DNA of 21,338 nt from a virus. The notes beneath the pieces were generated by a model. The model was given only the letters and a program-made list of their open reading frames with translations, ran no database searches and had not been told where the DNA came from. How positions within the stretch are numbered: position 1 is the first letter of the stretch; each line of letters begins with the position of its first letter. The position numbers and the translations under genes were made by a program. The stretch covers positions 1-21,338 of the IMG/VR virus record IMGVR_UViG_3300001450_000401; one strand, given 5' to 3'. Below, piece after piece: positions 2,976-20,330 of the stretch.

Positions 2976-3872
2976 ATGAAATTTAGTATAAAAACATTAA
3001 GAGAGAGTTTGGAACAACCGAAATCGGGCAAAAAAGTATTTACGAAAGGTAAAAAACAAAATGTTATTCTTAGTGAAGAACAATTAGATAGACTTATATC
3101 TACTGTAAATGACGATAAACCGTTAGACGTTAATAAAACTATTATTGAAGCATATCGCCATATTAGAATAGCAATTATTAATGAGGGATTAAATTTAGAT
3201 AAAGAGATGTACAATTATACTAATTATACTGGCTATTTATCAGAACAAGGTCAATACAATAGAGACCCTGGTTTAGCAGCCGCGGAGGGTGTTGAGAATG
3301 TGATTAATGGCATAAAGAAAGCTTATGGCATGATTAAAGATAGTGATACTAGAAAAAAGTTAGCTAATTCTATCACTAAATTAAGTAATTTTATGAGTAT
3401 AAGTGCTGAATTAATAGGTTCAGGTGCATCACAGAGAGCACCAAGGAGTTATGATATGGTTTCTGATGAGTTACCTTACCCAGAATTAGACTCGGATTCA
3501 GAACTAGAAGAAATTGCAAAAGGTGACTACCAACTAACTAAAGAAGACGCGAAACCTGACTTTTTAGACCTAGATGGTGATGGTGATAAGAAAGAATCTA
3601 TGAAAAAAGCGTCTAAGGAGGTTAAAGAAGATTCTGGACACGATGAAGCTATGAATTATGGTAAAGATGAGGGTCATGACGATAAAGAGCTTTACGATTT
3701 AAAACATGGTGGTGGAAGTGAAGACCATATAGATGACCTAGAAGATGATATGCATTATGACCATATCCACGATTCTAAGAAGATAGAAGAATCACAAAAA
3801 GAAAAAGAAATGTTGATTCAAGAAGATATTAAGAGAATGAAACAAGTAATCAACCCAATACCAAAAATATAA
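2976..3872 (+). CDS. Acidic hypothetical protein with EF-hand-like Ca2+-binding loop
   Basis: This is a 298-residue protein of unknown function. It starts with a basic segment (KSGKKVFTKGKKQ) and the short helix ILSEEQLDRLI, which resembles N-terminal segments of two other genes here. Residues 198-209 read DLDGDGDKKESM, an EF-hand/dockerin-type loop with acidic residues at positions 1, 3, 5 and 7. Loops of this kind occur in small acidic proteins of marine T4-like phages (recalled, not searched). Residues from about 215 to 275 are very rich in Asp, Glu, His and Lys (GHDD, DDMHYDHIHD), suggesting metal binding or disorder. No signal peptide or membrane segment is visible. Its place just after the sheath, with its own late-promoter box and a terminator behind it, suggests a late virion or assembly protein. 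It could be a scaffold or minor structural component; I cannot decide. Confidence 0.85.
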   Translation: MKFSIKTLRESLEQPKSGKKVFTKGKKQNVILSEEQLDRLISTVNDDKPLDVNKTIIEAYRHIRIAIINEGLNLDKEMYNYTNYTGYLSEQGQYNRDPGLAAAEGVENVINGIKKAYGMIKDSDTRKKLANSITKLSNFMSISAELIGSGASQRAPRSYDMVSDELPYPELDSDSELEEIAKGDYQLTKEDAKPDFLDLDGDGDKKESMKKASKEVKEDSGHDEAMNYGKDEGHDDKELYDLKHGGGSEDHIDDLEDDMHYDHIHDSKKIEESQKEKEMLIQEDIKRMKQVINPIPKI

Positions 3873-4208: not shown

Positions 4209-4781
4209 CTATAACTGTACGAATTTTAGTTTTGAGTGGTATCGGAAATTATACCCATTTATGTTTTCATACGACTCTTGTACATAAATATTAATAATCT
4301 TATTATCTTCATCTAATACTTCGTACTGTATAGGTCTAGAAGACCCACCAAGCAATAAATAACTACCGGTTATAGTTTCTGTCACCGTAAGATTATTTTC
4401 GGTCACATTTAGACCATACGTATATGTAGAATCATAATTCACCATGAACTCACCCACACCAGGTACGTTTTCCGGAAAAGATAAAGTCCAGACAGTACGG
4501 TGCTTGTCCAGGTCCTCAAATAGGTACATAGAACCACCATACCTAAGACTACCTTTAGGGCCATTAATAAAATGAGATATTTCGTAACTATCGTTAATAT
4601 CCAAATTCTCCATGTACATGGTTCCATCCACCAATAACCAATCACCCTCAATAAAGTCAAGTTGGTTATCTATTACTACACCCTGAGTTGTTGGATAATT
4701 GTTATCACACTCTATTAGTGGGTATTCTTTTTCACAAGAACATAAAATTAAAAGTAGTAATAGATAGTATAGGTTTTTCAT
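4209..4781 (-). CDS. Predicted lipoprotein, lipocalin-like, probable phage moron
   Basis: This gene encodes a 190-residue secreted lipoprotein on the strand opposite to the tail genes. The ATG at 4781 was chosen over one 27 bases upstream because it gives a compact signal peptide: MKN, a Leu/Ile-rich core, and lipobox L13-C14-S15-C16. Cys16 is the likely lipidated residue. The mature end begins Cys-Glu-Lys-Glu, weakly like the acidic surface-export signals known for Bacteroidota lipoproteins. The rest is beta-rich with no repeats. A GDWLLVDGTMYMEN segment near the start resembles the Gly-x-Trp of lipocalin-like lipoproteins. A host-type promoter match lies just upstream, and the gene sits inside an otherwise forward structural operon. 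This suggests a cargo gene acting at the host envelope, for example in superinfection exclusion; that role is inference. An outer-membrane spanin is possible but the protein is long and beta-rich for one. Confidence 0.8.
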   Translation of the reverse strand: MKNLYYLLLLLILCSCEKEYPLIECDNNYPTTQGVVIDNQLDFIEGDWLLVDGTMYMENLDINDSYEISHFINGPKGSLRYGGSMYLFEDLDKHRTVWTLSFPENVPGVGEFMVNYDSTYTYGLNVTENNLTVTETITGSYLLLGGSSRPIQYEVLDEDNKIINIYVQESYENINGYNFRYHSKLKFVQL

Positions 4782-4785
4782 ACTA

Positions 4786-4817
4786 CAAAGATAATAAATA
4801 AAAATCAATAAACCAAA
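4786..4817 (-). promoter_or_regulatory. Bacteroidota-type promoter match for the lipoprotein gene
   Basis: Read on the reverse strand, TTTG (4817-4814) is followed after 20 bases by TATCTTTG (4793-4786), matching the Bacteroidota primary sigma pattern TTTG / TAnnTTTG. The -7 box ends four bases before the ATG at 4781, so the transcript would be nearly leaderless. It is a match by eye only. Confidence 0.5.
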
Positions 4818-5761: not shown

Positions 5762-6250
5762 ATGGCTGACTTATTAATGAAAATGCCTATACCCTACGAA
5801 CCAAAGAAAAAGAATAGGTTTATTCTTAGATTTGATTCTTCATTAGGCATTAATGAATGGTACGTAGAGAGTACTAGTAGACCAAACATAACTATAAATG
5901 CGGTAGAGGTACCATTTCTAAATACATCTACTTATGTAGCTGGAAGATTTACGTGGAATACCATTAACGTTACATTTAGAGACCCTATAGGACCTTCAGC
6001 TTCTCAAGCATTAATGGAATGGGTAAGACTACATTCAGAGTCTGTGACTGGTAGAATGGGTTACGCTGCTGGGTATAAGAAAAATATAGATTTAGAGATG
6101 TTAGACCCTACAGGTGTAGTGGTAGAAAAATGGATACTACAAGGAACATTTCTAACTGATGTTAATTTTGGGGATTTGGGTTATAGTGATGAGGGGTTAG
6201 CAACAATCACAGCTACATTAAGACCTGACCGTTGTATATTAGTTTATTAA
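5762..6250 (+). CDS. Tail tube protein (T4 gp19-like)
   Basis: This gene encodes the inner tail tube subunit, which stacks as hexameric rings along the tape measure inside the sheath. Its 162 residues almost equal T4 gp19 (163). Matching features are the N-terminal PYEPKKKNRFILRF strand, the SRPNITINAVEVPFLNTS segment, the FTWNTINVTFRDPIGPSAS loop and the end LQGTFLTDVNFGDLGYSDE. The start at 5762 follows an A-rich leader without a Shine-Dalgarno sequence. The hairpin just downstream separates it from the chaperone gene, which would let this highly expressed subunit be made in excess over the low-copy proteins that follow. Confidence 0.92.
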   Translation: MADLLMKMPIPYEPKKKNRFILRFDSSLGINEWYVESTSRPNITINAVEVPFLNTSTYVAGRFTWNTINVTFRDPIGPSASQALMEWVRLHSESVTGRMGYAAGYKKNIDLEMLDPTGVVVEKWILQGTFLTDVNFGDLGYSDEGLATITATLRPDRCILVY

Positions 6251-6436: not shown

Positions 6437-7183
6437 ATGCAAGAGCAATTCGACACAATCCTTCCTTACGACATGGTTACCCTACCATCACAAGGTATTT
6501 TTTACAGTAATAACAAAAAGACTGTAAAAGTTACTTATTTAAATGCTTCTGACGAAAATTTATTAGCTTCACCATCGTTACAAAATAATGGTGAATTAGT
6601 TAATACTTTATTAGATAGAAAAATACTAGATAAAGACATTGCGGTTACTGATATGCCTGAGTGTGATAAAGAGGCAATATTAGTGTTTTTACGTAATACA
6701 GCTTTCGGTTCAGATTATACAGTAAAACTTACGGACCCAAAAACCAAAGAAGAATTTGAAACAACTATTGACCTATCTACCTTAAGGACTAATGATGTTG
6801 GTGTTGAACTAGATGAAAATAATGAATTTGACCACTACTTAGAAATGTCTAAGAAGAAAGTTAAATTAACATTCCTTACACCAAAGGATGAAAGAGAACT
6901 GAGAGATATAGACAGTAAGAACCAAAAAACCCCAATCAACCCATATATGACCAAACAATTGGAAAAGATGATTAAAGAAATAGATGGGAATAGGGACCCT
7001 ATGACAATACACCAATTTATACAGACTATGCCAATTAGAGACGCACAGAACATTAGAAAATCTATAAAGGATAATGTACCGACATTAGACCTAAATGTAG
7101 ATGTTATGACACCTTCTAATGACGTAGCTACCGTTAGAATTTCATTCGGTATTGAATTTTTTCGTCCTTTCTACGGCATATAG
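6437..7183 (+). CDS. Baseplate hub / tail assembly chaperone (T4 gp26/gp51-like), zero-frame product
   Basis: This gene encodes a 248-residue protein resembling the T4 gp26/gp51 baseplate-hub family. Recognisable parts are MVTLPSQGIFY near the N-terminus, KVTYLNASDENLLASPSL, the ELVNTLLDRKI helix and AILVFLRNTAFGSDYTV. A charged region, KVKLTFLTPKDERELRDI, follows. These proteins act in hub and tail assembly and are not expected to be major virion parts. Its position between tube and tape measure is the classical place of tail assembly chaperones, which in many phages are made in a short form and a frameshifted long form. The zero frame ends FFRPFYGI-TAG, and a compatible domain continues in the +1 frame. 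The start has no Shine-Dalgarno sequence. Confidence 0.82.
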   Translation: MQEQFDTILPYDMVTLPSQGIFYSNNKKTVKVTYLNASDENLLASPSLQNNGELVNTLLDRKILDKDIAVTDMPECDKEAILVFLRNTAFGSDYTVKLTDPKTKEEFETTIDLSTLRTNDVGVELDENNEFDHYLEMSKKKVKLTFLTPKDERELRDIDSKNQKTPINPYMTKQLEKMIKEIDGNRDPMTIHQFIQTMPIRDAQNIRKSIKDNVPTLDLNVDVMTPSNDVATVRISFGIEFFRPFYGI

Positions 7184-7349
7184 GAATGCGCTGCTGCAAG
7201 AGTTTTATTACTTAATGAAACACCTACATATCGCGTGGTCAGACCTACTAAACATGCCCACCTTCGAACGACGTTTTTACGTAAACCATTTGACCAGAGA
7301 GTTTGATGCACAAAATGAGGCAAGAGAACAAGCAAGAAACAAAAGGTAA
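7152..7349 (+). CDS. C-terminal extension of tail assembly chaperone in +1 frame (candidate programmed frameshift)
   Basis: This frame is open from 7128 to the TAA at 7347-7349 and overlaps the end of the upstream gene. It has no good start before the ATG at 7215; the upstream in-frame TTG at 7152 has no initiation signal. The encoded segment YRNALLQEFYYLMKHL, then WSDLLNMPTFERRFYVNHL, looks like a compact helical domain. Recalled homologous short domains of tail chaperones share a Y/F-M-H start, W-x-D, NMP and ERR/RFY. Because this similarity begins before the ATG at 7215, fusion to the upstream gene by +1 (or -2) shifting fits better than separate translation. The ATA-TAG at the zero-frame stop, or the TTT-TTT-CGT run at 7157-7165, are candidate slip points. 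Local G+C is higher than in neighbouring genes (GCGCTGCTGC). An independent 44-residue protein from 7215, or a sequencing error, are alternatives. Confidence 0.68.
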   Translation: MNFFVLSTAYRNALLQEFYYLMKHLHIAWSDLLNMPTFERRFYVNHLTREFDAQNEAREQARNKR

Positions 7350-7362
7350 AACAGATTTTAAC

Positions 7363-7374
7363 TATTTATAAATA
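7363..7374 (+). promoter_or_regulatory. Putative late promoter box (TATTTATAAATA)
   Basis: This is the most complete copy of the motif, a perfect 12-bp palindrome, 23 bases before the tape-measure ATG at 7386. It lies 13 bases after the stop codon of the chaperone extension. Confidence 0.58.
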
Positions 7375-7385
7375 AAGTATCATTT

Positions 7386-9557
7386 ATGATTAGGTTGTTA
7401 AAACAGTTATTTATTGAAAGAAAGCTTTCCGGTTCGGAAGCTTATATAGCGTACCACCCAGACTTGGGTGTCCCTATAGGTATTTTTAACGTTAAAGACG
7501 AACCAACCCACCAATCCAGAGTAAACTCTATAAAAAAATACGGCAAGAAAGGTAATCCATTATCGTACCTAATCGCTAAAATATTGGGTATAGACTCACC
7601 AATTCCTTCATATGCTATAACATTAAAAGATGCTAGTGGGGCGGATGTAAAGTTGGAAGACTTATTTAAGGACGCAGAATTTAAAACATTATTAAAAACT
7701 TCGGGGTACGTATCATCAAATACTAGCAGTAGAACGGTAGATACTTCTGGTGCGGCTGGAGATGTGTGGGAGACCATGCAAAAAATGTTAGAAGAGAGGA
7801 CACCTAGAAAAACTGTAAGTTTAGGTGATATACAAGCAGTATCAAGAGTAATAACCGAGTTAAAAACTAATTACGCATCACTTGGTACTTTAACCGGTAC
7901 AGTAACAAAATCTATGGATGTTATATTAGATATGTTAGCCCTTGAAGATACCATGAGGCTTGACATATCCAAGACCATAGGTATGTCTAATGCTAGGTTG
8001 TTTGATACTATAGATGCGTTAACAGAAGCTAGTCTAGAAACCGCAAAATTTAATATTAATGCTAATGACTTAGCAGAAACCTTTACAAAGATAACCAAAG
8101 CATCAGGGAGACAACTATATATACCTACTGAAGTTACTGCTAGAGCTGCTTTATTAACTAAAACATTAGAAGGTTTCGATGCTGGTAAATTTGCTGATGC
8201 CTTTGATAGTATTGGTATGAGTTTAGGTGATGCGATAGGGGGTATTGATGAGACTGATAATAGCATGCAAGATGTTCTTAATACCGGTAGAAACTTTGGT
8301 GTTGTTATGGAGACATTTTTAGGTAGTGTTGCTGATAATTTGAAACTGGTAAACACCTATGGTTTTGAGAGAGGTGTGGAGGGATTGTCTGCGATGGTAG
8401 CAAGAGCTCAAAAATTAGGTCTTGATATAGGTAAGGTAGCTTCATTATCTGAAAAATTCTTAGACCCAGAGGGGGCAATTGATTTTGCAGCAAAAATGCA
8501 GGTAATTGGTGGTGCTGCTGGAGACCTAACAGACCCATTTAAATTAATGTATTTAGCAACCAATGATTTAGAAGGGTTAGGTGAAGCTATAGCTGAGACA
8601 GCTGCTGGTGCAGCTACTTTTGATAAGGAAAAAGGGAAATTTATTATATCACCAGAACAAAGAAGACAAATGATGGCCATGAAAGACGAACTAGGTATGA
8701 CTTACCAAGAATTGTCGGATTTAGCTATTAAGGCTGCTAGGGAGACGGAAGTATTCAATCAGATAGGTGATTTTAGTGATATGAGTAAAACCGACAAAGA
8801 ATTACTAGCTTCTATGGCGGAAATTGGTAAGGGTGGCGAGGCTAAGGTAAGAATACCAGGAATAGAAGAAATGGTGGATGTAGCTAACGTAACGGATTCC
8901 CAGATGGAGTTATTAAGAAAAGAAGCAATGACTGATAGTGATATATACGCACAACAACTTACAGAGGCCGAAAGAGCAAACCAATACCTATCGGCGGTTG
9001 AAGCGGGAATTAGGATAATGGTAAAGGATATGGGTGGTGGTGACGCTATGAGAGAGATGGGACTTTCACAACAGTTAGCTGGAGCTATGCCTAAACTAAC
9101 AGACGAAGATTTAAAAACAATTAGAGGTGGGGATATGGATGAAATACAAAAGATGATAACAGAAAAGGGGAAAAACGCTAAGACTGATACCGAAGCTGTA
9201 TTCGTTAAATCATTAGAAGATTGGTTTGATAAAAAAGCGACAACTGGTAATGATTTTATATTAAATGATGATGGTATATTAAATTTTAATAAAGACGATT
9301 TAATTATCGGAGGAACAAAATTGGACGCCGCTTTAGGTCGTGAAAATAGTGAAGGGGACATCATTAATAGGGTAAATAATATGAGTAATACCCAAAACAC
9401 AACTATGAGTGGTGGTAAAGGTATGGTGGAATTGTCAGGTACATTAAAAATTGAGGGTAACGGGGAAACCGCTGATATTGATGTTAAGAGGTTATTAAAC
9501 ACAATGAGTAGTGGTGACTTACAAGCTTTAAGCATCAAGTTATCCAATGCTACCTAA
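7386..9557 (+). CDS. Probable tail tape measure protein (T4 gp29-like position)
   Basis: This 723-residue, largely helical protein is placed directly after the tube and chaperone genes, where tape measures lie. A folded N-terminus (EAYIAYHPDLGVPIGIFN) is followed by a long, low-complexity helical body with many Ala, Leu, Glu and Asp residues. It contains repeated-looking segments such as NARLFDTIDALTEASLETAKF. The C-terminus returns to a compact region with FNKDDLIIGGTKLD, then a beta-like stretch (MVELSGTLKIEG) and a final VKRLLNTMSS helix. I recall an asparagine/aspartate-rich 'DDLIIGG' segment near the end of tape measures in other T4-like phages. No clear membrane helix is visible. At the usual 0.15 nm per residue it would set a tail of roughly 100 nm. 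The role is inferred from position and composition. Confidence 0.75.
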   Translation: MIRLLKQLFIERKLSGSEAYIAYHPDLGVPIGIFNVKDEPTHQSRVNSIKKYGKKGNPLSYLIAKILGIDSPIPSYAITLKDASGADVKLEDLFKDAEFKTLLKTSGYVSSNTSSRTVDTSGAAGDVWETMQKMLEERTPRKTVSLGDIQAVSRVITELKTNYASLGTLTGTVTKSMDVILDMLALEDTMRLDISKTIGMSNARLFDTIDALTEASLETAKFNINANDLAETFTKITKASGRQLYIPTEVTARAALLTKTLEGFDAGKFADAFDSIGMSLGDAIGGIDETDNSMQDVLNTGRNFGVVMETFLGSVADNLKLVNTYGFERGVEGLSAMVARAQKLGLDIGKVASLSEKFLDPEGAIDFAAKMQVIGGAAGDLTDPFKLMYLATNDLEGLGEAIAETAAGAATFDKEKGKFIISPEQRRQMMAMKDELGMTYQELSDLAIKAARETEVFNQIGDFSDMSKTDKELLASMAEIGKGGEAKVRIPGIEEMVDVANVTDSQMELLRKEAMTDSDIYAQQLTEAERANQYLSAVEAGIRIMVKDMGGGDAMREMGLSQQLAGAMPKLTDEDLKTIRGGDMDEIQKMITEKGKNAKTDTEAVFVKSLEDWFDKKATTGNDFILNDDGILNFNKDDLIIGGTKLDAALGRENSEGDIINRVNNMSNTQNTTMSGGKGMVELSGTLKIEGNGETADIDVKRLLNTMSSGDLQALSIKLSNAT

Positions 9558-13678: not shown

Positions 13679-13996
13679 ATGACTTATTATAACAGATACA
13701 ATGACTTTATTGTTAATGGTGACTATATTATGGTTCCACATATTAGTGTGACAAAAAAATCTAGTGATAAAAGAGTAACTTATAAGGTAGGTAAGAGTAG
13801 ACTAGATAAACTATCGGACCAGTTCTATGGTTCACCCTACTACGCATGGTTTATTATGCAAGCAAATTCTCAATACGGAAATCAAGAATGGTCAATTCCA
13901 GATAACGCATTAATTACAGTACCATTTCCATTAATGAAGTCTTTAGGGGAGTATAAAAGTAAACTAGACGAACATTTCCTATATTATGGCAGATAA
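13679..13996 (+). CDS. LysM-like baseplate protein (gp53 / tail protein X-like)
   Basis: This 105-residue protein contains a LysM-like core: a VGKSRLDKLSDQFYGSPYYAW stretch (residues about 38-58), then IMQAN and IPDNALITVPFPL near the C-terminus. The same pattern (D-x-L-x-x-I/L, YG, AN, P-x-x-L-x-V-P) occurs in the LysM domain of T4 baseplate wedge protein gp53 and in P2 tail protein X. In those phages such domains help attach baseplate parts around the tube or hub. The gene starts two bases after its upstream neighbour and overlaps the giant baseplate gene by 11 bases, which fits translational coupling of two interacting parts. Family-level confidence is good; equating it with gp53 is inference. 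Confidence 0.78.
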   Translation: MTYYNRYNDFIVNGDYIMVPHISVTKKSSDKRVTYKVGKSRLDKLSDQFYGSPYYAWFIMQANSQYGNQEWSIPDNALITVPFPLMKSLGEYKSKLDEHFLYYGR

Positions 13997-16900
13997 TTTA
14001 AATTCAGGGAATGTACTAACAACACAAGTAGGTAACAACGTTGTGATTATAGACCCAAACAAAGTAGTTGATTCTGCAGGTAAGGTAACAGATAGATTAG
14101 TTCCTTCAGACGAGTTAGTAATGTACGCTAATTTAAACGCTAGAATTTTTCCTAGAAGTAAAGTTTTAGCTGGAACATCCCAAGGAGCATCAGTCCAAGT
14201 AGAATTATTTGAAGGGGAAATTAATTTTATGAGACCTGAAGGAAAGAGTAAATTAGATTCTGATTGGACAGAAGCATTCACCGACCCAGAAGTTAATAAA
14301 CAAGTAAATGATGTAAGTTCAGCTGGTGTTACCGTATCTAGTGATATACAAAATAAGAATGATTTCCAGGGTTTTGGTATAACATCTATTAATGTTAAGA
14401 TTAATGCGTCCTATATCCCACAAGTAACTATTAATTTTACGGACATTAGGGGGAAAACCCTATTCGAGCAAGCTAAAGGAAATACACCATATACCGCATT
14501 TTTTCACCTACCATACCCAACATTCTTCCTAACACTGAAAGGGTATTATGGTAAAGCTGTACAATACCAACTAACACTAGAAAAATTCGTATCAAGATTT
14601 GACCCCTCTAATGGTGATTACTTAGTTACTTGTGATTTTAAAGGTAATCATATTGCATTGTTAAGAGATATTAATATGCACGAAGCGGTAACTGCACCAT
14701 ACATGTTTCCTAATAGGATGAATGCAAGTACTGGTGAGATAACATCTACTAGGGGTAGACAAACTATGTTAGATGTTTATAGGCAATATAAAGATAAGGG
14801 GTTAATAGGTAATGGAGAAAATGATACCCAAGATTTCCCAGAATTAACTATTGTAGAATTGATAGAGATAGTACAAAATTTAGATAATAATTTAAGTACA
14901 TTATATGGTGAAGCAAATCTTGAAGCAACAACTGATAAATTAGAATATTCAGAAACTTTAAATTTATTTAAAGAGGCTGTTACAGGTAAAGATGGTTGGG
15001 TTAAAAAATATTTGGATATTGGTACTCAAAGAAACTTAAAAGTTGTTGTACCTTCTGATGACCCATCAGCATTCTCTGGAAAAACCATTATAACCCCAGC
15101 ATTCCCACTATTGGGTATGTCACAAATGAGCGAAGAGAAAGACTACCAAAAACAAAAAGACGGTAAAGAAAATATAGAAAAAGAAGCAAAAAAGGCACTA
15201 GAGTTAATCGTGGGTAAGTACACTAAGTTACTAAAAGATAACCCCACATTCGGACCAATAAGTCAAAAGTTTGATGGTAAATATAGGGTAAATAGTGGTT
15301 TCTCAGAAAAAAACTACAACTTATATGATAATTCTATAATAAGAGGGAATGTGACAATCGCGGACATAACAACTAAACTTAATAAGGAATTTGCCCCATG
15401 GTTTGCGTTTGCTGGTAAATCGGAATCATTCAACCAAGTATGGGATAGAACAAGTAGAGTTTTTGAAAAAAAAGCTGAATTAATGGCTGAAGATATGACC
15501 GAAAAATTAAATGAGAGGTTAGAAGAAGAATTAGGCTTTAGACCAACAATTAGAAATGTGTTTGCTGTTATAATGGCAGGTGCAGATACATTCTTAAGGA
15601 TGTTAGACGATGTACATAATAAAGCAATGTTACAAAGTAATAATGAAAAAAGAATTAACACAGCAAAACAGTCTAACGACACACCCAAAGGAACATCACT
15701 AAAGTCCAACGGGGACGAAACGCCAAAACTAGGAAATGTGTTTCCTTGGCCCCAATATTATGTTACAGAAGAAAAAGACTGTAAAACATCCTCGACATTA
15801 AAATATCCGGGAGATAAAGAGGTTATAGAAACTACACAAGCGTGGAACACAGAAGTATGGCCCGAAGTTGAGTTCGTAGAAGAATACACTAAAAGTTCTA
15901 CATATAAATTTTCCACATTCTCATCCCCAACTAATAATGACGGTCTAGATATGAATTTTACACCAACATCCATATTTGATTGGCCACCTTACACTACACC
16001 ATATAAGGTTTTGAGTAATGTTAATATTTGGTGGGAAATAATACAAAGAGCAGAACAAATTATATTTTACGGTAGTTTTATGACAAGATTTAGAGGTAGT
16101 GGTCAATGGGTAGAATCATTGATAGAACTAAGTGAGTACGAAGCTAATAATTTATTTGAAAAAATAAAAGACCAAAAAACGATTAAGCAAATTTTTATGG
16201 ATATGCCACAGTCAGCTTTACTATGGATGGAGAATATCTTAGCTAGAGACGACTACCCAAGATTTGTACCATACTTGTTGTATAATAGTGTTATTCCAAT
16301 ACCGTTTAACAGTACAGGAAAATTTATTTGGGACCCACAAAATTTTACCGTAATATCTAAAGAATTCACTAAAAACTTTGAGGCTCTAAAAATCACTAAA
16401 GGTAATGGGTTTTTTGATGTTGCACCTACAGTATCTGGAAATTGGGTACAAACTAATTTTGCTGGTGGAAGCTCACTAAATACCAGTAATCTTTATGATA
16501 TTAGTAAAAATTTAACCTATGACATTATCACCACAAACGTATTAAGTGATACAACAAATACAAAATATTTCACAGAATTTAAATATGCTTTCGCTGGTAA
16601 GGAAGCGAAGAACTATTATTTAAATTATCTATCTAGAACTATTAATTATTCCGAGTTAAAAAATAGTAGTGGTGTGGATAAATTCTACCAAAGGATAAGT
16701 GAAAATAAATTTGTAACTGAAGGTGAAATATTGTTTACACCAGAAAGTATAGGAGCACCAGGTGTAGCGTGGACGGACCCAAACCCAATAAAAAGATTAA
16801 CATCAATTCTTAATACACCATACTTTATAAATGCTTTATTAGACGGTGTCCAAAACGAAAAATCTTTAGGTCCTAATAGTACCAACCCATATACTAAAGC

Positions 16901-19900
16901 CTCTTATTTATTTTTAAATTCGTTACCGTTACCTACATTTAGAGAAAAAGCTATAAGTGTTGGGGCTGATGAGAGCTCCTCGGAGTTTGGTAATTATATT
17001 TCCCAAATGTTTAATCAGTTACCAGCTCTTCATGAAGTACCTGTAGCTTTATTATTAAGGGTAGGTTCTGTATGGTGGAGATATAAAAATATGGTTAGGT
17101 CAACTACCGGTAATGTTGACCCACTAAGTTCTATTTGGGGTAATGTAGGTCAGTTTGGTACAATTGCACCATATAACATTGGTCCAGCCTATATATATGA
17201 TGAAGTGAATCAAGTACTGGACCCTACCGTTGCCCTACAACCACCATACGCTTTTAAAGATATGGGGGTCACATACCAATACTCCTCGGAACAAAATGTT
17301 AATAATATAATGCAAGTAGGTGTATACCCTGCATTAGTTGGGGCATTACATTTTATAGCTACAGACTCTACATCTTATATTAATACTGGTTCAGGGGCAA
17401 ATTTAAATGATATTATTAGTCCTTCCGCACCACTAACTATTACAAATAATACTGGGATAGGGTTTACCTCACCAGGTGGTACCCAAGTACAATTCTACGA
17501 CGTATATATGGACTCCGCAACAATAATTAATAAAAATGTGGGTGTACAATACAACAACAGTGAAGAACCAAAACAATATTATATATTATATCCATCATCT
17601 GGTGGGTTAGGTGAAACAGACGCTAATACTTACAATACACCAGTTATGAATAACACAGCAATCCATAACGGTGCTACACGATTATTATGGGGTACGTCCA
17701 ACTACGGATATTTTGAACATAAAGCTGGGTACAAAGGAACACCAAACCAGTACATTAAAAAAGTAAATCCTAACAAAACTCAACAAACTTCTTGGGAATT
17801 TAAAGATGACGGAAATTATTCTACCATAGAAGAACTAAGAGGTGTATTCAATGTAGAACAACTAAACGAATTTGAACAAATGTTTTTAAAGTTCGCGACA
17901 CCGACAGGGTCTTATGAAATTGGGGGGTCATTAAAAACAATAATAAAAGAATTGGTTGTGGTAGAAAAGACTTGGTTGGACGCTGTTGAGATTGTAAGTG
18001 ATATGTTTTCTAAGAATTTAGCTTGGGCACAATTAGAGAAATTTAATACAGCTATGGACCTATTTTTAAATAAAACTGTAAAATATGAACATGAAACAAC
18101 ATCAAACCTAAACCTAATAAGTGGGGACTCCAACCTTATACAAAAAGTGTCTGCCCTACATAATGAAATACAACCAGGGTTTCTCGGTTCACCATTTGCT
18201 GAGTTTAGTGACAGTTATGATTTTGGTAACTATAGTGATAACCCTATTATACCAGCATCTGGGATACCATGGGGTGGGGGTAACCCTATAGAGTTACAGG
18301 AAGCAAGAATACATCTAGGTGAGTTTGTTGTACAAGACAGCACCCAATTCTCAAGTTTAGAACCATTTGATGACACCAACCCAATGTATAAGTTTTTTAT
18401 GGATGTAAGAGGTAATGACGGTGGGATAGAATTTAACGTAGAAAACATACAAAGTTTTGCCCCAATAGCTAGACTGTATGGGACCTACCTAACAACAAAC
18501 CCAACATTTATAACTCCAAAAACGTATCTAGATTTGGTAATGAATGAAATTAACTCATTAAAAAGTGGTCAAGAGCTGTTTATTAATAGTCTAATAAAAA
18601 ACTTAAAAAAATTAATTAAAGAAGACCCAACTAAAGATACCAACAGTAGTGAAATTATAGAGAATGATGAAAGAGCTAGTATTGACGCACCGGATGTAAA
18701 ATTAGAATTGTACAACCAATTTAAAACACTAAATGATAGGTGGATAGCTGGAATTAATTTGTCTTCTACTGGAACTACCCTATTTGAAAAGTTTTTATTT
18801 TTTGACAGGGCAAATAGTGATATTGGTGACGAGGCAATAATTAATATATGGGACGTATTAAAATTAGACTCACCTTTTAAAGGAGGTGAAGAAGATACCA
18901 TAATTAAATCTACATTAACACAGAGTGTAGCCAGTTATTTAAGTACTATTTTAGCTAATAATTATTTTAATTTCATACCACTACCAGCTTATATTAATTT
19001 TAATAGCCCACTTAATGACGGGTCTAACACACAATTACAAGGAAATGCAATGTTTGGTAATTTTATGACTGTGGATTATTTAGATGCTAGGCCAGCATTC
19101 CTATGTCAATATGTAGGTAAACCATCATCACAGTTAAATATAGAAAATAATAATAATGGTTATAATAATGATACTTTTGACCCCGGAAATATTGCAAATA
19201 ATGCCTTTATTAGAAAACCGTGTAAGGATAATAAACCAGAGTTATCTAATAAGATGATGGGGTTCACCGTGGATTTTGGTATAAAAAATCAAAATATCTT
19301 TGAGTCAATAACACTGGACCAGTCCCAATTTCAAAATACGTCGGAAAGTTTTAAGATATTACAAGAAATGGCAGATTCTGGTGGTGGTGGGTCAACGTCT
19401 ATGGCATCTATATCACTATATAATATATATGCTAGTAGGTCATATACAGCAAAAGTAACCTGTGTAGGTAATGTAACAATACAACCAACACAATACTTCC
19501 AACTAAGATATTTACCAATGTTTAACGGACCTTATTTAATAATAAATGTAGACCACGAAATACGAGCTAATAGTATTGAGACTTCTTTTGAGGGGGTTAG
19601 GGTACCACTACCAGAATTACCACTGGTACAAGACCTAGTACAAAGAGTTAATAAAAAGTTATACGAAAAAGGTGAAGATAGGTTAAAAGAATTACCAGTA
19701 GATTTATATTTCGATGCACGAAGTGCTACAGAATCACAAATGAAATTGAAAAGTAATCAAAATGGATATATTGATAATGTGAGTACCTATCAGACATTTG
19801 CTAGTGATAATGTTTCTTGGAAAAATATACTAGATGGAGACAAATTCAGTGTGATAGACATGTTTGAAGACCCAGAAAAAACCCACCTGGGTATTGATTT

Positions 19901-20330
19901 TGTACCATTAGAGGGCGACACAACTACAGCTGATGGTGTTGGGCTACCGGTTTATAGTGCTACTGAAGGTAAAATAGAAAAAATGATAGATGGGTGTAAT
20001 CATTTACAAACAACTAATAATTGTGGTAAGTATGGAAATATGGTTGAAATAAAATTAACAGTAAACATAAATCCAGATGAAGGAGACACCAAATACTATA
20101 TAACCAGGTATGGGTTTATGAGAAGTGAATTATTAGTAAAAAACCAAACTAACCTAAACATATCTGATGCTGGTTTCGGTAATAAGAAATTAGGGCTTGT
20201 GGGTAATAGTGGACTATCTAAGGAAACTCATCTACATTTTGAAATTGTGAGAGGACTAAAAGGTAAGAATAATAAGATAATAGAACATTATTTAAACCCC
20301 AAAAATTTCCTACCTATGTTTAATGCTTAA
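13986..20330 (+). CDS. Giant baseplate hub-associated protein with C-terminal M23 peptidase (tail lysin)
   Basis: This 2114-residue protein is the largest in the window and ends in a zinc endopeptidase that probably cuts host peptidoglycan during injection. The C-terminal domain (about residues 1960-2110) has the complete M23/LytM ligand set: HLGID with H1967 and D1971, and HLHFE with H2082 and H2084. A G-N-S-G-L loop precedes the second motif, as usual in the family. Residues about 100-250 (TSINVKINASYIPQVTINFTD, LPYPTFFLTLKGYYG) look like a hub or wedge domain. A Gly-rich linker (GGGGS, near 1798) precedes a beta domain at about 1805-1870 (AKVTCVGNVTIQPTQYF) similar to the C-terminal domain of hub proteins. 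No signal peptide or membrane helix is visible, fitting assembly in the cytoplasm. T4 divides such roles between gp27 and gp5; here they seem fused. The middle 1300 residues are unassigned. Confidence 0.88.
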   Translation: MADNLNSGNVLTTQVGNNVVIIDPNKVVDSAGKVTDRLVPSDELVMYANLNARIFPRSKVLAGTSQGASVQVELFEGEINFMRPEGKSKLDSDWTEAFTDPEVNKQVNDVSSAGVTVSSDIQNKNDFQGFGITSINVKINASYIPQVTINFTDIRGKTLFEQAKGNTPYTAFFHLPYPTFFLTLKGYYGKAVQYQLTLEKFVSRFDPSNGDYLVTCDFKGNHIALLRDINMHEAVTAPYMFPNRMNASTGEITSTRGRQTMLDVYRQYKDKGLIGNGENDTQDFPELTIVELIEIVQNLDNNLSTLYGEANLEATTDKLEYSETLNLFKEAVTGKDGWVKKYLDIGTQRNLKVVVPSDDPSAFSGKTIITPAFPLLGMSQMSEEKDYQKQKDGKENIEKEAKKALELIVGKYTKLLKDNPTFGPISQKFDGKYRVNSGFSEKNYNLYDNSIIRGNVTIADITTKLNKEFAPWFAFAGKSESFNQVWDRTSRVFEKKAELMAEDMTEKLNERLEEELGFRPTIRNVFAVIMAGADTFLRMLDDVHNKAMLQSNNEKRINTAKQSNDTPKGTSLKSNGDETPKLGNVFPWPQYYVTEEKDCKTSSTLKYPGDKEVIETTQAWNTEVWPEVEFVEEYTKSSTYKFSTFSSPTNNDGLDMNFTPTSIFDWPPYTTPYKVLSNVNIWWEIIQRAEQIIFYGSFMTRFRGSGQWVESLIELSEYEANNLFEKIKDQKTIKQIFMDMPQSALLWMENILARDDYPRFVPYLLYNSVIPIPFNSTGKFIWDPQNFTVISKEFTKNFEALKITKGNGFFDVAPTVSGNWVQTNFAGGSSLNTSNLYDISKNLTYDIITTNVLSDTTNTKYFTEFKYAFAGKEAKNYYLNYLSRTINYSELKNSSGVDKFYQRISENKFVTEGEILFTPESIGAPGVAWTDPNPIKRLTSILNTPYFINALLDGVQNEKSLGPNSTNPYTKASYLFLNSLPLPTFREKAISVGADESSSEFGNYISQMFNQLPALHEVPVALLLRVGSVWWRYKNMVRSTTGNVDPLSSIWGNVGQFGTIAPYNIGPAYIYDEVNQVLDPTVALQPPYAFKDMGVTYQYSSEQNVNNIMQVGVYPALVGALHFIATDSTSYINTGSGANLNDIISPSAPLTITNNTGIGFTSPGGTQVQFYDVYMDSATIINKNVGVQYNNSEEPKQYYILYPSSGGLGETDANTYNTPVMNNTAIHNGATRLLWGTSNYGYFEHKAGYKGTPNQYIKKVNPNKTQQTSWEFKDDGNYSTIEELRGVFNVEQLNEFEQMFLKFATPTGSYEIGGSLKTIIKELVVVEKTWLDAVEIVSDMFSKNLAWAQLEKFNTAMDLFLNKTVKYEHETTSNLNLISGDSNLIQKVSALHNEIQPGFLGSPFAEFSDSYDFGNYSDNPIIPASGIPWGGGNPIELQEARIHLGEFVVQDSTQFSSLEPFDDTNPMYKFFMDVRGNDGGIEFNVENIQSFAPIARLYGTYLTTNPTFITPKTYLDLVMNEINSLKSGQELFINSLIKNLKKLIKEDPTKDTNSSEIIENDERASIDAPDVKLELYNQFKTLNDRWIAGINLSSTGTTLFEKFLFFDRANSDIGDEAIINIWDVLKLDSPFKGGEEDTIIKSTLTQSVASYLSTILANNYFNFIPLPAYINFNSPLNDGSNTQLQGNAMFGNFMTVDYLDARPAFLCQYVGKPSSQLNIENNNNGYNNDTFDPGNIANNAFIRKPCKDNKPELSNKMMGFTVDFGIKNQNIFESITLDQSQFQNTSESFKILQEMADSGGGGSTSMASISLYNIYASRSYTAKVTCVGNVTIQPTQYFQLRYLPMFNGPYLIINVDHEIRANSIETSFEGVRVPLPELPLVQDLVQRVNKKLYEKGEDRLKELPVDLYFDARSATESQMKLKSNQNGYIDNVSTYQTFASDNVSWKNILDGDKFSVIDMFEDPEKTHLGIDFVPLEGDTTTADGVGLPVYSATEGKIEKMIDGCNHLQTTNNCGKYGNMVEIKLTVNINPDEGDTKYYITRYGFMRSELLVKNQTNLNISDAGFGNKKLGLVGNSGLSKETHLHFEIVRGLKGKNNKIIEHYLNPKNFLPMFNA

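Follow-up and report, generated by a model that had tools for sequence, protein, structure and literature searches.

A programmed +1 ribosomal frameshift, for which we have high confidence from the comparison of related viruses, would make two proteins from one T4-like tail-assembly-chaperone gene, with the slip at UUU. The gene lies in a 21-kb viral fragment (21,338 nucleotides; the window in the following), and near its end the ribosome very probably skips one base at UUU-C. Phages usually slip backwards (-1) at the tail-chaperone gene, and phages with long tails as a rule require this chaperone in two forms, a short and a long one. According to the proposed model, most ribosomes would read the gp26-like gene up to the TAG at 7181 and release the short form of 248 amino acids. 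A minority would pause when peptidyl-tRNA-Phe sits on UUU (7160-7162) and the A site holds CGU, a rare Arg codon; the paused ribosome would then slip one base forward, the tRNA re-pairing with UUC (7161-7163) and C7163 being skipped. Reading would resume at GUC (7164-7166) and continue into a gp51-like helical domain, which results in a predicted long form of 303 amino acids (6437-7349, plus strand), where TTTC at 7160 is read as one Phe step. What the comparison itself brings out is that the frame and the site are conserved, that coding selection acts in the +1 frame and that no start codon is conserved.

The short form is encoded at 6437-7183 on the plus strand and ends with TAG. Its product is a member of the T4 gp26 family, as it matches the profiles PF12322 (T4 base plate protein; 43.4 bits at a cut-off of 24.5, E 4e-11) and phrog_150 (baseplate hub; E 4e-12). 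On the same strand, the +1 frame stays open from 7128 to 7349 and spans the gp26 stop; the end of the gene and the limits of the open frame are exactly those given in the initial annotation. The part translated after the proposed shift (7164-7346) encodes a gp51-like C-terminal helical domain, whose own match to the gp51 family (phrog_634) is weak (E 0.009). The zero-frame stop TAG at 7181-7183 (plus strand), which the proposed shift would bypass, differs in position and identity among relatives. The upstream neighbor is a T4 gp19-like tail tube protein (5762-6250, plus strand; phrog_4542, E 9e-32), and the downstream neighbor is a protein of 723 amino acids (7386-9557, plus strand). A family search with the latter gave no match; it is presumed to be the tape measure protein because in Flavobacterium phage immuto the gene at the same place is annotated as tape measure. 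The chaperone gene accordingly sits between tail tube and presumed tape measure, as in the gpG/gpGT type.

Elsewhere in the window, the tail sheath (315-2954) is unusually long with 879 amino acids, and its family matches are confined to the C-terminal third. A protein of 298 amino acids (2976-3872) contains an EF-hand-like DLDGDGDKKESM stretch and matches phrog_24078, a family of unknown function, while a small protein with a lipoprotein-like N-terminus (MKNLYYLLLLLILCSC) is encoded on the minus strand (4209-4808), opposite to the tail genes. A protein of 2114 amino acids (13986-20330) is probably a baseplate protein with a lytic domain; its C-terminal stretch is M23 peptidase-like (residues 1985-2089), with an E of 1e-4 that lies below Pfam's cut-off. 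No tRNA genes were found within the window.

The open frame of a single genome is merely suggestive, because the stretch of 222 bases also stays open in 0.75% of mononucleotide shuffles; the matter was decided by comparison across relatives. Four scans of IMG/VR yielded 265 loci, some of the contigs recurring. After removal of identical junctions, 170 window- and immuto-type junctions remained, including the window and two phage records, and 63 distinct junctions of the cyanophage type. Gp26 identity among the relatives spans 76% to about 26%. In 170 out of 170 distinct junctions, at least 45 codons beyond the site can be read in the +1 frame without a stop, and in none of them is this so for the -1 frame. 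The same +1 arrangement is present in all eight GTDB contigs, three of which are in MAGs labelled Flavobacteriales or Winogradskyella, and in four further phage records, i.e. Rhodothermus phage RM378 (TTT_TGG), Bacillus phage SP-15 (TTT_CAC), Streptococcus phage GXN1 (TTT_CGT) and Pseudomonas phage QdP_Psa3 (TTT_CCC_TAA). Taken together, the forward arrangement is kept in all of the approximately 180 related viruses examined, and the homolog search proposed in the initial annotation has turned out in favor of the shift. A search of viral_contigs with the gp26 of RAS14 found no relative.

The substitution pattern points in the same direction. Between the window and 18 close relatives, 334 of the codon changes at +25 to +145 after the slip codon are synonymous and 105 nonsynonymous when read in the +1 frame; for the other two frames, the corresponding synonymous to nonsynonymous counts are 57:397 and 43:391. 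By this comparison, synonymous changes prevail past the gp26 stop in the +1 frame only. Furthermore, in both clades the codon position with the highest variability is displaced by one base when the upstream region is compared with the downstream region. On these comparative grounds, we regard the overlapping +1 frame as confirmed, being real and far past chance. An indel in the assembly near the junction, or a decayed gene, could produce such a pattern in a single genome, but the arrangement is shared by all distinct junctions and the eight GTDB contigs, with purifying selection in both frames; judged by these independent contigs, this explanation is already refuted and its chance negligible.

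A different explanation takes the +1 frame for an independent small gene, with translation starting at TTG 7152 or ATG 7215 or coupled to the termination of gp26. TTG 7152 is in frame in the window, some TTG occurs in the upstream open part in 76 of 91 window-type loci, the cyanophages possess an ATG just past the gp26 stop (63 out of 63 distinct junctions), and T4 carries gp51 as a gene of its own. However, the start is not conserved. From the opening of the frame to 27 codons past the site, 98 out of 168 loci of the two main clades contain no ATG, and 25 contain neither ATG nor GTG nor TTG; in immuto-type loci, the first ATG is mostly located 32 or 36 codons in. Independent translation of the +1 frame can therefore not be the general route, and the proposition that the ORF of 44 residues from 7215 is always a separate gene fails among the relatives; in the window alone, TTG 7152 makes a separate translation possible. 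The predicted structure bears on the same question. For the +1 segment of 62 amino acids, AlphaFold2 predicts three helices (mean pLDDT 94.5), the first of which begins at segment residue 5, i.e. four residues past the slip and ahead of any ATG, as the initial annotation had noted for the conserved-looking part of the extension domain. The earliest ATG of the +1 frame (7215) lies within this conserved first helix, most of which a start there would delete. Moreover, independent initiation leaves the invariant TTT_Y and the CGN codon unexplained, so that we consider a separate gene quite improbable. In the public records of L001 (2336-2446), L287 (2012-2131) and L291 (2079-2198), the extension is annotated as a short hypothetical protein from an internal codon, which truncates the domain.

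The putative slip site is part of a cassette, TTT_TTT_CGT_CCT (7157-7168, plus strand), that is nearly invariant in the window's clade. Its T-run (7157-7162) corresponds to two zero-frame Phe codons, TTT TTT, which are followed by CGT CCT. Aligned by codon, the junctions read TTT TTT CGN CCT in the window type and TTT YTT TGG CCT in the immuto type; the conserved core is the slip codon and then a pyrimidine, with UUU_CGN in the window's clade and UUU/CUU_UGG and similar combinations in the sister clade. Over the 170 junctions, slip codon and next base are TTT_C or TTT_T in 149 cases, which corresponds to an in-frame UUU_Ynn, CTT_T in 20 and CTA_T in one. This last member, LR756508, has a poor re-pairing codon and counts against the model. 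In bacteria, UUU_Ynn is a sequence at which +1 shifts occur with particular ease (Atkins et al. 2016, PMC5009743). In the window's clade, the slip codon (7160-7163 with the skipped base, plus strand) is TTT in 91 out of 91 cases; elsewhere in these genes, TTT and TTC occur in a ratio of 739:330 (TTC 31% of Phe). The Arg codon that follows (CGU at 7163-7165 in the window, plus strand) is CGN in 89 out of 89 relatives, and elsewhere in these genes there are 90 CGN and 709 AGR among 799 Arg codons. In the listed genes of the window, CGN accounts for 17 of 207 Arg codons, and the TTT_CGN at 7160 is the only in-frame instance. If the slip occurs at TTT, the following C is skipped, and the +1 product hence places no demand on this base. 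The pattern fits a requirement for UUU_Y together with a slow A-site codon; the exact slip codon and ribosomal slippage as the process are inferred.

A +1 shift at another codon, either CCU (7166-7168) or AUA before UAG (7178-7184), appears unlikely. Both +1 clades retain CCT, slippage at proline codons is known from Listeria phage PSA (PMC5009743), and QdP_Psa3 has CCC_TAA; yet conservation of CCT is also expected from coding in both frames, and CCT is not required, because members without it keep the +1 frame (L068 has TTT at this place, RM378 AAT and SP-15 GCC). As to AUA-UAG, 31 of 91 window-type loci have their zero-frame stop two codons earlier, and the stop codon varies. We rejected this slip point, which had been one of two named in the initial annotation; the other, the T-run, holds in the form of its second TTT with the following C (7160-7163). 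Transcriptional slippage is known at homopolymer runs, and T6 at 7157-7162 would offer a place for it. It is nevertheless very improbable that the frame is reached in this way or by a -2 shift of the ribosome: a long run is absent from many +1 members (TTTCTTTGG in 17 junctions, TTCTTTCG in three), which argues against both processes, and a -2 shift finds no re-pairing in the CTT_T members. A programmed +1 shift in a chaperone gene between tail tube and presumed tape measure is the best-supported reading, as the initial annotation had proposed from one sequence.

The same annotation had suggested that the GC-rich stretch just downstream could form a stimulatory structure, and here the results are unsupportive. 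The stretch GCGCTGCTGC is not conserved, most close relatives reading GCCCTATTGC. RNA folding gave z = 0.03 for 7160-7240 and z = -0.82 for 7166-7245, and the consensus fold of 12 relatives reached -2.98 kcal/mol with zero compensatory pairs. A stimulatory downstream hairpin is not supported, and because no stimulator was found, the efficiency of the shift may be low.

For the structural comparison, AlphaFold2 models of the gp26 part and of the +1 domain were folded separately. The gp26 model (pLDDT 89.7) matches T4-like baseplate hub assembly proteins in BFVD. Among PDB structures, the best match is the HK97 tail assembly chaperone 2ob9 (Z 6.0, rmsd 4.3, 96 residues), followed by YqbN 3klu (Z 5.7), which we take to be a prophage chaperone relative, and 5ir0 (Z 4.6), with unrelated entries at 2.8 or less; all these fold matches are of middling Z, and Z below 8 may reflect a common arrangement. 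For the domain of 62 amino acids, the BFVD search found no match below E 0.001 and the second search of the PDB nothing above Z 2.9. These matches, together with those of T4 gp51 described below, support, but do not prove, a short and long chaperone pair like lambda gpG/gpGT. By analogy with this pair, we infer a role for the short form in coating the tape measure and for the extra domain of the long form in recruiting tail-tube subunits.

In the cyanophage relatives, the counterpart of the gp51-like domain is encoded in the -1 frame at T_TTT_TTC (63 out of 63 distinct junctions), and the stop is placed one codon further on; hence, the family uses both directions. In these phages (L045 1198-1391, L206-L285), the gp51 domain overlaps gp26 and an ATG is located three codons past the T-run, again in 63 out of 63 junctions. 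Because this ATG comes just after the gp26 stop, a frameshift and a restart are both possible in cyanophages. The motif T_TTT_TTC is also present in Desulfovibrio phage 7757, Vibrio phage Grn1 and ACG-2014j; Rhizobium phage I1_18 has T_TTT_TTA and RAS14 has T_TTT_TTT. The genes PSSM2_106/107 of the T4-like cyanophage P-SSM2, considered as a gp26/gp51 pair, are unrelated, and the real pair is located at 6495-7390 of the P-SSM2 genome. In a profile comparison, the fused window type matches the cyanophage type over its whole length (residues 32-307) with 95.7% probability, and the cyanophage domain matches residues 207-245 of T4 gp51 with 62%; a direct comparison of the window-type domain with T4 gp51 was not significant. 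The gp26 tree clusters the shift directions strongly and needs two or three changes between them, with long branches that make the deep placement unsure.

T4 gp51 (L032 6480-7229) matches phrog_150 from end to end and phrog_634 at its C-terminus and, for this reason, looks like a fused long form that exists as a separate gene. This would fit a frameshift whose place was taken by a separate copy; after T4 gene 26, no extension ORF was found. With T4, the window shares the gp26 family (phrog_150, PF12322) and the gp51-like C-terminal domain, but gp26 and gp51 are two genes on opposite strands in T4, and here there would be one gene and a shift. A title by Vladimirov, Gautam and Davidson from 2022 (PMID 34826709) reportedly proposes a mechanism other than frameshifting for T4-like phages.

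Among known systems, the tail chaperone frameshift of lambda gpG/gpGT (Levin, Hendrix and Casjens; Xu, Hendrix and Duda; reviewed in PMC5009743) is similar in the position of the gene between tail tube and tape measure and in the short and long chaperone made from one gene. However, the siphovirus lambda shifts by -1, and the shift proposed here is +1 at UUU_Y in T4-like phages. The usual, though not universal, -1 shift at an X_XXY_YYZ heptamer does not occur at this locus, the -1 frame being closed in 170 out of 170 junctions. Because the shift is +1, the window's locus represents a variant of the gpG/gpGT type and not a standard member. The chaperone genes of Vandenendeviridae and Andersonviridae, which use a -1 poly-T frameshift (PMC12846349), share the gene position, the T-run at the 3' end of the short form and a conserved downstream frame, but differ from the window's clade in direction; in our data, a -1 form of this kind appears in the cyanophages (T_TTT_TTC). 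For poly-T -1 signals in T4-like phages, PMC12846349 gives Vladimirov et al. as the source. Shifts by +1 occur in the Listeria phages PSA, A118 and A500 and in the haloarchaeal myovirus HSTV-2 (PMC5009743), which makes them alike in direction and in concerning phage tail genes; the Listeria sites, however, are CCC_U and belong to the genes of the major tail and capsid proteins rather than to the chaperone gene. The identical codon pair UUU_CGU, with the same direction and a CGN codon in the A site, acts as +1 motif in influenza A PA-X; for bacteria, +1 sites of the type UUU_Ynn are described (PMC5009743). PA-X belongs to a eukaryotic virus and the bacterial examples are cellular or error sites; moreover, the influenza site is preceded by a UCC codon, which is absent at the window's site.

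Our literature search gave no earlier case of a T4-like chaperone with a +1 shift at UUU_Y. Frameshifts in chaperone genes as such are already known; the present one, for which the comparison argues strongly, would be a new form of them. A large T4-like lineage, sampled from marine, freshwater and MAG data, appears to rely on this +1 shift, and the site is compact and would work without a stimulator. With the extension cut short or left out in public records, a protein is missing from hundreds of phage annotations. We lean, with little more than even confidence, towards one old T4-like chaperone family that obtains its long form via slippage on a U-run, with a direction that differs by lineage and a domain architecture that is kept. 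Its -1 side would comprise the U_UUU_UUN sites of cyanophages and some Vibrio, Desulfovibrio and Rhizobium phages, its +1 side the UUU_YNN sites of the window's clade, the immuto clade, SP-15 and others, and CGN would be the sole pause signal in the window's clade. The +1 clades together with the cyanophage -1 form offer a natural series in which to ask how a programmed shift can change direction and still give the same kind of product; and if the single-family reading is true, the ratio of the two chaperone forms would follow the supply of CGN-reading tRNA.
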